NCBI GenBank assembly: GCA_030263375.1
Contig: SZOV01000010.1
Location: forward strand, 1 to 54,546
Origin: Deltaproteobacteria bacterium PRO3
GTDB lineage: Bacteria; UBA10199; DSSB01
Length of the DNA: 54,546 nucleotides
Reading direction: 5' to 3'
Below, piece after piece: positions 19,230-54,546 of this stretch; position 1 is the first letter of the stretch, and each line of letters opens with the position of its first letter. The translations under genes were made by a program, and so were the position numbers. Below the pieces are notes generated by a model. It ran no database searches and was not told where the DNA came from. It saw nothing but the letters and a program-made list of their open reading frames with translations.

Positions 19230-22200
19230 ATGGCCAACGGCATACCCGAACAACGCGGACTCTACGGAGCCTTCCAACAGTGGTACCGCGACGCCAAGAT
19301 CCCCGCCCAAGAGGTCGACCTCGACCGCGACGGCCAGGCCAAGCCCCGGGAAGTGGTCGCCTACGTCCTCTCCCATCTCGATAAATTTTCCCCCAAGGTT
19401 CAAAAGCAAGTCGACGCCCTCCGCCAGGCCTTCCGCGGCCTGGGCTTCGCCGACGCCGAGGCCGTGCAGCTCCTGACCGGGGAATTGAAGGACGGCGCCC
19501 ATCGACTGGTGGGGAAGGGAAAGGACTTTGAAAAAAAGGCCGCCGCGGCCGCGGCCGAGAACAAAGCCGAGGAGGCCGCGCGCCTCCTCGACCTGGCGGA
19601 AAAATCCTACCGCTTGGCCCTGGACCTGCGCCCGCACACGCGTCTCGCCCACCAGGCCCTCGCCGACTTGCTGTATCGCGGGGGAAAAAACGAAGCGGCC
19701 CGCGGGCACGTCGCTCAAGTCATCCTCCGCAGCGGGGAAAAAATCCCCGAACTCATGACCTGGTTACAGGGCCTCAAGGATCCCGAGATCCAGAGACAGG
19801 GCGCCGTCGCCTTTGCCGGCGAGGTCCTGCTCAAGGAATCGGAGCATAAAACTCTGGCCTCGCTCTACGAATGGGCCGGCCTGGATGCCGCCCGGCGCGG
19901 CGATTCGGACCAGGCCAAGCGCTACGAGGAAAAATGCCTGCTCGCCGACGAGCTGGCGCGGCCCTATCGCTTGGATTTCGCGCAAAAAGACAATCCGCGA
20001 CTTTTTGCCCTCTACGAGGCCCTGCGTCGGGCGGGCATCCCCTCGGGGCTCATTTCGGGAAATCGCCTCGATAACCGCGTTTACCACACGATCACCGCTG
20101 CGCAGCTGTTGAACTATGTCGACCGGCACGCCGCAGACCCCAAGGTGCGGGAGGCCCTGAAGTCTCTGGGACTTATGCCTCCGCCCTGGGAGTCGTCGCC
20201 CTTTTCCGCCGATACCTTTTTTGCGGGCAAGGCCGGTTTCACCGAAAAACTCGGCGCCTATCACGCCAAGATGGCGACCTTGGCCGTGACCCCGGAGGCC
20301 CGTTTTCAGCACCTCGAGGCCGCCGTCCACTACCGTCCCGAGGCCGCCGAGACCCAGCTGGGGATGGCCCACTATTATTTGGGAAAAAATCAGCTGAAGG
20401 AGGCCGAGCCCTATCTCTTGAATGCCCTGCGCTTGGCCCCCCAGACCCCGGGCCTGCAGGACACCCTGAAGGCCACCCAGCTCAACCATATGAACCATCT
20501 GGGCGAGCGCATCCAAGCGGACCTGCGCGAGGCGGACGCCTTGCTCGCCCAAGGCGAGATCGCGGCGGCCGAAAAACTCGTGAAGCGCGCCGCCCAGACC
20601 TCGGAGGCGCGCTTCGACCACCACGCGAAGATGCTCTGGGAGGAACCGAATCACCAGCTCCGCACCTCCCGCCTTGACGCCCAGCTGAAATTCCAGCAGG
20701 CCCGCCTCCTGGAGGCCAAGGCCAAGACCGCCGACCAATTCAGCGAGGCCCATTTCCTTTACGTGCTGGCCGAGAGCAGCGCCCAGGTCGCCTTGAGCAA
20801 GGACCCCAAGGACGCGGCGGCCTTGGAGGTCGTGGCCCGGGTCGGCAAGATCCAGGTGGGGCAAAAGCAGCAGGGCGCGGCGTTGCAGGAGGAACGGGAG
20901 ATTCGCCAAGACCTCGACCGTGCGGACGAGCTGCTCCGGGATGGAAAGACGGAGGCCGCCAAGAAACTGTTAAGCAAAGCGGCCAAGGCCCTCCAAGTGC
21001 GGCAGGACAACCACGGCAGATTCTTCGAGGAGGGCACTGATTTCCACGCCCGCGGCGCCCGCCTCGAGGCCGAGCTGAAGTTCCACCAGGCCCGGGCCCT
21101 GGATGGGAAAAAAGTCGCCCAGGGTCGCGAGGCCCAAGACCTCTATCTCCAGGCGGAGAAGGCCGCGGCCGCACTGCTGAAGCAAGACCCCAAGGATAAG
21201 GTCGCCCGTCGCCTGCTGGAGCGCCTCGAGCAGGTCCGCAACCTCTACAAAGACTCCGCCCTCAAGCAGGACCAGGAGATCCACAAAGGCCTGCGCCGGG
21301 TGGACGCGCTGCTCGCCCAAGGAAAGACGGAAGAGGCGCAGCGCCTGCTGCAAAAGACCTGGGTCTCGGTGGACGCGCGGTGGAATCACCACTCCAAGCT
21401 CCTCGCCGAGAACCCCTATTTCAAGGCCAGCACCGCGGCCATCGACGCCGAGCTTAAGTTTCACCACGCCCGCATCCTCGAGCGCCAGGCCCAGACCCAG
21501 GACCAGTGGGTCGAGGCCGCCAAGGTCTACGAGGCGGCGGAGGCCAGCGCCACCGCCTGGATCGAGCGGGCCCCCAAGGACGACAAGGCCCACCTGCTGC
21601 GGGCCAGGATTCGGCACGTCCGCGAGAATTACAAGGGCGCCGTGGAGGATTACGGCAGCGCCCTCGCCAAGGCCCCCGACGCCGCCGCGAAGGAACGCAT
21701 CGCCCTGCAGTGGTCTTTCTATCTGGAGGAGCTGAAGAACCTCAAAACGGAATTAAAGCGGATGCGCGGTCTCTGGAAGGACATGGCCGTGCCGCCGCCG
21801 CCCTTCGACCAATACCGCCTGCAGAACCGCGAGCTGGCGGTGACGCGGGCCCTGCAGGCCGTCGCCGGCAGCGGCCTCGACCAGGGCCTGTGGATCCCCG
21901 ACCCAAAATTGAAAGGGCCCCAGATCGCCGAGGCGAAGATCCAGGCCTTCCAGGAAATCGGCAAGGAAGTGGGAGAGCTCGAGCAAGGGGTGAAAAACCT
22001 CGGCTCCGAGGCCGCACTGAAGACCTATCACGAGGGCGTGAACAAGGTCCTCCGCAAGGCCGGGCTCAAGACCTCGGACCTGCCGGCCGACCTGCAAAAC
22101 TTGGTGGAGATCGGCCCCGAAGGCCAGGTGATCTTCAAGCCGGAGCCGCCCAGCCCCGCGGGCACGATTTCCGTCCACGGAAAATCCGAGGTGGAACGGA

Positions 22201-54546: not shown

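Follow-up and report, generated by a model that had tools for sequence, protein, structure and literature searches.

Effector-associated domains (EADs) are small domains of defence-like conflict systems with defined core components, and it was proposed that they act by homotypic coupling (PMC7159879). Most giant bacterial proteins on record are either located at the cell surface or act as nonribosomal peptide and polyketide synthases (PMC11573180). Here we analysed a 54,546-nucleotide stretch of DNA (the window), which is contig C10 of the draft genome of the uncultured Deltaproteobacteria bacterium PRO3 (3.55 Mb in 198 contigs, completeness estimate 100%) and which carries three giant genes, G1, G2 and G3. 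In the middle of the giants lies a hydrophobic glycine-rich helical module (GHM) that is also present in many other proteins of this genome.

Like EADs, GHM is non-enzymatic, is repeated across one genome and is joined, at an end of the protein, to many different partners (PMC7159879). Unlike EADs, it is about 230 residues long, is found on metabolic enzymes as well and has no core component that was found. The resemblance is one of use and not a demonstrated relationship, and EADs may be regarded as the nearest described analogue. In polymorphic toxin systems (PMC3482391), a conserved front part is followed by variable C-terminal domains, as it is in GHM proteins, whose C-termini, however, include housekeeping-type enzymes and sensors and in which Pfam found no trafficking domain. 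With the described giants (PMC11573180) our proteins share a length of several thousand residues, and one subgroup of GHM proteins has fatty-acid synthase domains, but G1-G3 have no apparent signal peptide, and no adhesin repeats or assembly-line modules were apparent in Pfam.

Relatedness of the giant genes

An initial annotation of the window had described three same-strand genes of 4108, 4063 and at least 2555 codons, and all three frames are indeed open on the plus strand (Table 1). G3 is truncated because the contig ends at 54546; its complete syntenic orthologue, in another genus, has 3569 aa. The frame of G1 can alternatively be read as 4110 codons from a GTG at 19224, while its ATG start at 19230 is backed by the paralogue L024. 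Frames matching the giants are open, without stops, in several other genomes.

The giants were compared pairwise by BLASTP with low-complexity filtering and composition-based statistics. G2 and G3 are 38% identical over residues 12-571 and 12-605 (E 9e-86) and 46% identical over residues 2725-3041 and 2235-2553, here termed domain X (E 1e-66). The TPR core of G1 matches that of G2 (residues 129-415 against 225-526, E 8e-19) and that of G3 (E 9e-21), and the C-termini of G1 and G2, both with PP2C and FHA domains, match with an E of 8e-47. Chance or low-complexity resemblance was rejected on these E-values. In profile searches the TPR core together with the second EF-hand-like unit proved to be common to 13 giants in four genomes, and a contig from a second genus keeps the same order of a VWA gene, the G2 orthologue (3988 aa), a gene of 906 aa resembling S, the shorter gene between G1 and G2, and the G3 orthologue. 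G3 and the orthologue from its own genus are 72% identical over 1300 residues, with a nonsynonymous divergence (dN) of 0.20 and a synonymous divergence (dS) of 1.12; G3 is, by this excess of dS over dN, under purifying selection.

These comparisons support the view that G1, G2 and G3 belong to a single family whose members have their units in the same order but differ in their enzyme domains. The order runs from the TPR core with its EF-hand-like units through a solenoid and GHM to degenerate FHA units, after which the enzymes follow. The annotation was thus borne out both in the common order of units, with significant similarity between the giants, and in their divergence into different enzymes (RelA/SpoT in G3, PP2C with FHA and weak hydrolase-like domains in G1 and G2). 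It had also stated that no named family has this architecture, and none was found in the libraries and literature searched; for architectures like that of G1-G3 the literature searched, judged mostly from titles and abstracts, held nothing fitting. As a claim of an undescribed family it holds for a single family with no named match, but the cluster accounts for little of a superfamily that extends over the whole genome and has GHM as its hallmark, and many of the proteins in this superfamily are metabolic enzymes rather than signalling proteins.

The glycine-rich helical module and its partners

An AlphaFold2 model of the G3 module has five long helices (pLDDT 85, pTM 0.77). Sequence and fold searches of the PDB gave no match (best E 0.17 and 0.53, respectively), a comparison with viral folds gave none either (best E 0.68), and nothing in Pfam and PHROGs lies over the module. 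GHM is apparently an undescribed domain as far as the libraries and literature searched are concerned, and the evidence speaks more strongly for its being undescribed than for its being confined to this lineage, because the searches outside the phylum were limited: a search of a genome collection with a three-row alignment returned a single named relative, a contig of a "Deltaproteobacteria" lake metagenome-assembled genome, and one GHM query against plasmids found nothing. Polar and glycine residues are invariant across diverse copies, and the hydropathy of the helices is mostly 0.7-1.7.

With a first GHM profile, 22 proteins, S included, were recovered from the initial set of loci. The short-type profile gave 81 matches in the genome (E <= 1e-4, all 128 candidates scored), about 10 of which are short fragments, and a few further giant-type copies come solely from the other profile; in all, the genome has more than 70 copies of the module. 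The reading frames of GHM genes sum to about 103,500 codons, or 8.75% of the genome, a figure that is approximate because the sum counts fragments and G1. One of these genes, L092 (G000:C53:7797-8462), is split by a TGA stop and is read as two open reading frames (ORFs); decay of this copy or a mistake in the assembly is the probable cause. Four relatives from the same family have at least 43-61 matches each. No match was found in two other genomes of the family, G004 and G005, which are 82% and 73% complete, and loss cannot be told from missing data there because both genomes are incomplete. Between 1 and 5 matches were found in 7 of 39 genomes from other families of the phylum, some of them more distant than G004 and G005. 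A quick FastTree tree, read without branch supports, separates GHMs of the G3 type, the G2 type, a third giant type and the short type, with copies from other families among them.

Short GHM members consist of a helical leader of about 90 residues, the module and a variable C-terminus. The partners recognized by Pfam include ketoacyl synthase, biotin carboxylase with carboxyl transferase (acetyl-CoA carboxylase), a helix-turn-helix domain, a pyridoxal-phosphate enzyme, an aminotransferase, an amino-acid permease, PAS-histidine kinases, GGDEF and type I fatty-acid-synthase beta-like domains, and about half of the scanned short members have no Pfam match. Fusions of the module to PutA and to a fatty-acid synthase that exceeds 4100 residues were seen in other families of the phylum. 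In some pairs of proteins the GHMs are 86-94% identical but the C-termini have little or nothing in common; for example, the ketoacyl-synthase and acetyl-CoA-carboxylase proteins are 90.4% identical over the module. Therefore, GHM behaves as a cassette. The only ketoacyl-synthase C-terminal domains found in the genome are in one GHM protein and one cut ORF, and the fatty-acid-synthase beta-like domain was not found in the near-complete relative G001. Fungal-type type I fatty-acid-synthase domains were seen in GHM proteins of two families of the phylum (L131:5549-18001 of genome G031, and contig C78 of the PRO3 genome itself).

A 28-bp palindrome, GTAGGGGCCGTTCGCGAACGGCCCCTAC, was found near the genes of the window, at 14877 and 16801, and slightly varied forms of it lie in frame inside the GHM genes L091, L096, L106 and L108, at two loop positions. 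Mobile palindromic elements are known from Rickettsia, and this palindrome may belong to that kind.

Units and neighbours of the giant genes

The TPR type of the N-terminal core was confirmed by Pfam in G2 and G3 and by structure comparison in G1, whose model matches solved and designed TPR superhelices (Foldseek, E 1.8e-5). The strict canonical EF-hand pattern, a 12-residue loop with acidic ligands, was passed only by the 5922-aa paralogue L024, in the loop equivalent to the first one of G1, and by none of G1, G2 and G3. G1 is near-canonical by eye, and both units are degenerate in G2 and G3. The name "EF-hand", where it stands for calcium ligands, suits the G1 type but not G2 and G3, and calcium binding by the giants is doubtful. 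The FHA-like units that had been read in the middle of the giants are supported by hhalign in G2 and G3, where they are degenerate (83-85%, with controls at 0.1%), but are weak in G1 (23%).

The alarmone synthetase domain of G3 resembles RelA/SpoT-type (p)ppGpp synthetases in its Pfam match (54.5 bits, cut-off 27) and in its catalytic motifs, with TDVGGAR, GYRAMH and EIQIQT intact; these motifs are kept in six giants. It differs from typical RelA/SpoT synthetases in being embedded in giants, and the same genome also has one stand-alone Rel of 839 aa. The complete G3 orthologue has PP2C downstream of the synthetase. Besides G3, RelA/SpoT domains were seen in three other large ORFs of the PRO3 genome, L031 (G000:C7), L024 (G000:C13) and L121 (G000:C160).

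The PP2C domains are like Stp1/IreP-type phosphatases with FHA partners in their match, in the metal-site motifs of G2 and in the adjoining FHA domain, and unlike them in scoring 52-56 bits where the equivalog cut-off is 230 and in being fused at the end of a 4000-residue chain. In G1 the alignment has DEVGTGG in place of DGMGG, the other metal-site motifs being kept. A hydrophobic hairpin precedes PP2C in both G1 and G2. The HD-like domain of G1 scored 14.2 bits against a Pfam cut-off of 22, its HDAGK motif being seen by eye, and the DHH-like domain of G2 has no Pfam family above threshold and was assigned by eye from motifs in the alignment with L024; PDB sequence searches with slices of both gave no match. 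Domain X has no Pfam match. The enzyme domains of G1-G3 are presumed to be catalytically active, which would include alarmone synthesis by G3. The signalling character of the giants is supported by their FHA, PP2C and RelA/SpoT domains and by the 28 protein-kinase matches of the genome, which also has 23 FHA matches.

The shorter relative that had been placed between G1 and G2 is a real GHM protein, but it is encoded on the minus strand. Its HExxH motif with a downstream E is conserved in S and three relatives, and S matches no Pfam peptidase family. A fourth member of the family had been suspected at the left edge, where an ORF at 2-3346, cut by the contig end, has an FHA region. Its detectable similarity to the family is limited to FHA and it was rejected as a member; this region resembles that of the GHM protein L030 (40% over 99 residues).

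To the left of G1-G3 lie ordinary chromosomal genes, including those for an EPSP-synthase-type enzyme and a PrmC-type methyltransferase, and therefore the giants are not in an obvious mobile element. The gene adjoining G1, at 16902-18803 on the minus strand, encodes a VWA-domain protein that is 77% identical to its counterpart beside the G2 orthologue in another genus. A promoter scan of the interval between G2 and G3 found none.

Table 1. Positions of the giant genes, the shorter gene S and their units in the window
Feature	Position	Strand	Basis
G1 giant gene	19230..31556	+	ORF, 4108 codons from ATG 19230; homologous to G2 and G3
G1 first EF-hand-like loop DLDRDGQAKPRE	19317..19352	+	near-canonical, read from sequence
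G1 TPR core and second EF-hand-like unit	19485..20645	+	profile NT 383 bits; AlphaFold2 pLDDT 87; Foldseek to TPR
G1 GHM-like module, divergent	23460..24038	+	hhalign against GHM alignment 89%, E 2.3e-6
G1 small alpha/beta module	26355..26636	+	iterated profile; common to G2 and L024
G1 HD-like domain	27267..27443	+	Pfam HD E 0.054, below cut-off; HDAGK motif by eye
G1 hydrophobic hairpin, possible membrane tether	28464..28628	+	second-helix hydropathy 2.03; topology inferred
G1 PP2C domain	29292..30458	+	NCBIfam Stp1 PP2C E 5e-14; DGMGG altered to DEVGTGG
G1 FHA domain	30576..30800	+	Pfam FHA E 1.5e-9
G1 transglutaminase-like region	31290..31445	+	Pfam DUF553 E 0.0012, below cut-off
S, 863-aa short-type GHM protein, between G1 and G2	31564..34155	-	GHM profile 180 bits
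S HEAEH zincin-like motif	31822..31836	-	HExxH and downstream E
S GHM	33259..33882	-	GHM profile
G2 giant gene	34526..46717	+	ORF, 4063 codons; 3988-aa orthologue in G001
G2 TPR core and second EF-hand-like unit, degenerate loop	35075..36280	+	profile NT 479 bits; Pfam TPR
G2 GHM	38804..39526	+	profile; residues 1427-1667
G2 DHH-like domain	40721..41995	+	conserved DHHGRF and TDNLADGGW motifs; 53% identical to L024
G2 degenerate FHA-like unit	42233..42565	+	hhalign 83% as a set with G3
G2 domain X, common to G3	42620..43645	+	46% identity, E 1e-66; profile
G2 small alpha/beta module	44321..44599	+	iterated profile
G2 hydrophobic hairpin, possible membrane tether	44714..44872	+	second-helix hydropathy 2.13
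G2 PP2C domain	45098..46081	+	NCBIfam E 3e-15; canonical NED, DGMGG, SDG and DN motifs
G2 FHA domain	46238..46438	+	Pfam FHA E 1.3e-16
G3 giant gene	46882..54546	+	ORF, 2555 codons, 3' end cut by contig end
G3 TPR core and second EF-hand-like unit, degenerate loop	47551..48738	+	profile NT 476 bits; Pfam TPR
G3 GHM	49699..50385	+	profile; residues 940-1168; AlphaFold2 model pLDDT 85
G3 first degenerate FHA-like unit	51064..51411	+	hhalign 83% as a set with G2
G3 second degenerate FHA-like unit	51934..52221	+	hhalign 85%
G3 RelA/SpoT-type synthetase domain	52342..53292	+	Pfam E 1.7e-14
G3 domain X	53506..54537	+	BLASTP against G2; profile

Proposed role of the giants and of GHM

The best explanation, to which we give a probability of about 0.5, is that the giants are cytoplasmic signalling hubs and that GHM is an organising cassette which holds enzymes at one place. 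G1-G3 would reside in the cytoplasm, G1 and G2 probably being tethered to the membrane by the hydrophobic hairpin, a topology suggested by hydropathy. The TPR solenoid with the EF-hand-like units would offer an interaction surface, and GHM would connect the protein to a common platform. Output would come from the C-terminal part: alarmone synthetase in G3, DHH-like, PP2C and FHA domains in G2, and HD-like, PP2C and FHA domains in G1. The lineage would copy GHM and attach the cassette to its own enzymes by the dozen, and GHM-GHM contact or membrane docking would then gather those of signalling and of metabolism on a shared scaffold or membrane. More tentatively, and clearly below even odds, GHM may be a cell-wide organising domain through which dozens of enzymes, those of fatty-acid synthesis as well as those of alarmone and phosphorylation signalling, come together in one physical assembly with G1-G3 as its regulatory hubs.

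Several points weigh against the hub and cassette proposal. Binding of GHM to itself, to the membrane or to another partner is something that we infer, and no core partner, such as a shell or a dedicated scaffold gene, was identified. The GHM helices are marginally hydrophobic, which disfavours a classical membrane anchor. The module of G1 was detected by profile-profile comparison only, and the PP2C motif of G1 is altered. The GHM-less genomes G004 and G005 imply that the family can do without the module, unless the absence reflects a gap in these incomplete genomes.

It is also conceivable, if rather unlikely, that GHM does no more than anchor proteins in or at the membrane, as an integral or peripheral part, and so brings enzymes there singly and without assembly. 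The five long helices of the module and the hydrophobic hairpins elsewhere in G1 and G2 fit such a role, and PutA, one of the partners, is known to associate with membranes. The hydropathy of the helices is nevertheless low for membrane-spanning segments, and GHM is found on an amino-acid permease as well, itself already a membrane protein.

The near-identical GHMs on unrelated C-termini, their very high copy number and the palindromic repeats in frame inside GHM genes could instead suggest that GHM is selfish or for the most part neutral, a cassette propagated through duplication and through recombination close to the starts of genes, and has no specific host role. We consider this unlikely, as dS exceeds dN in the giants, polar and glycine residues are invariant across diverse GHMs and the module is present in other families of the phylum.

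Exported effectors or polymorphic toxins, in which GHM would serve translocation or membrane entry and the C-termini would be payloads, are still less probable. Variable C-termini do follow a shared N-terminal part with hydrophobic helices, and RelA/SpoT and zincin-like domains are among them. The fusion of GHM to metabolic enzymes argues against secretion: among the C-termini are acetyl-CoA carboxylase, fatty-acid synthase and PutA, and also an amino-acid permease, histidine kinases and GGDEF. Furthermore, no signal peptide is apparent at the N-termini as read from the sequence, Pfam scans of the giants and short members found no secretion or trafficking domain, and PADLOC gave no match for G1 and G2. 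Finally, we give practically no credence to the idea that the giants are unrelated proteins alike only in helical low-complexity sequence, or spurious or misassembled ORFs, for although they are alanine-rich and helical, with high GC content and long antisense ORFs, the filtered E-values, the syntenic orthologues, the excess of dS over dN and the matching stop-free frames in several other genomes all stand against it.

Roughly 9% of this genome is spent on proteins built on one domain that is absent from the libraries searched. A GHM profile would let annotators name dozens of hypothetical proteins per genome in the lineage. A cassette found on both signalling and metabolic enzymes represents a different use of protein size and hints at a new way of organising enzymes. 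If the hub and cassette proposal is true, the spatial organisation of bacterial metabolism would become testable by tracking one domain.
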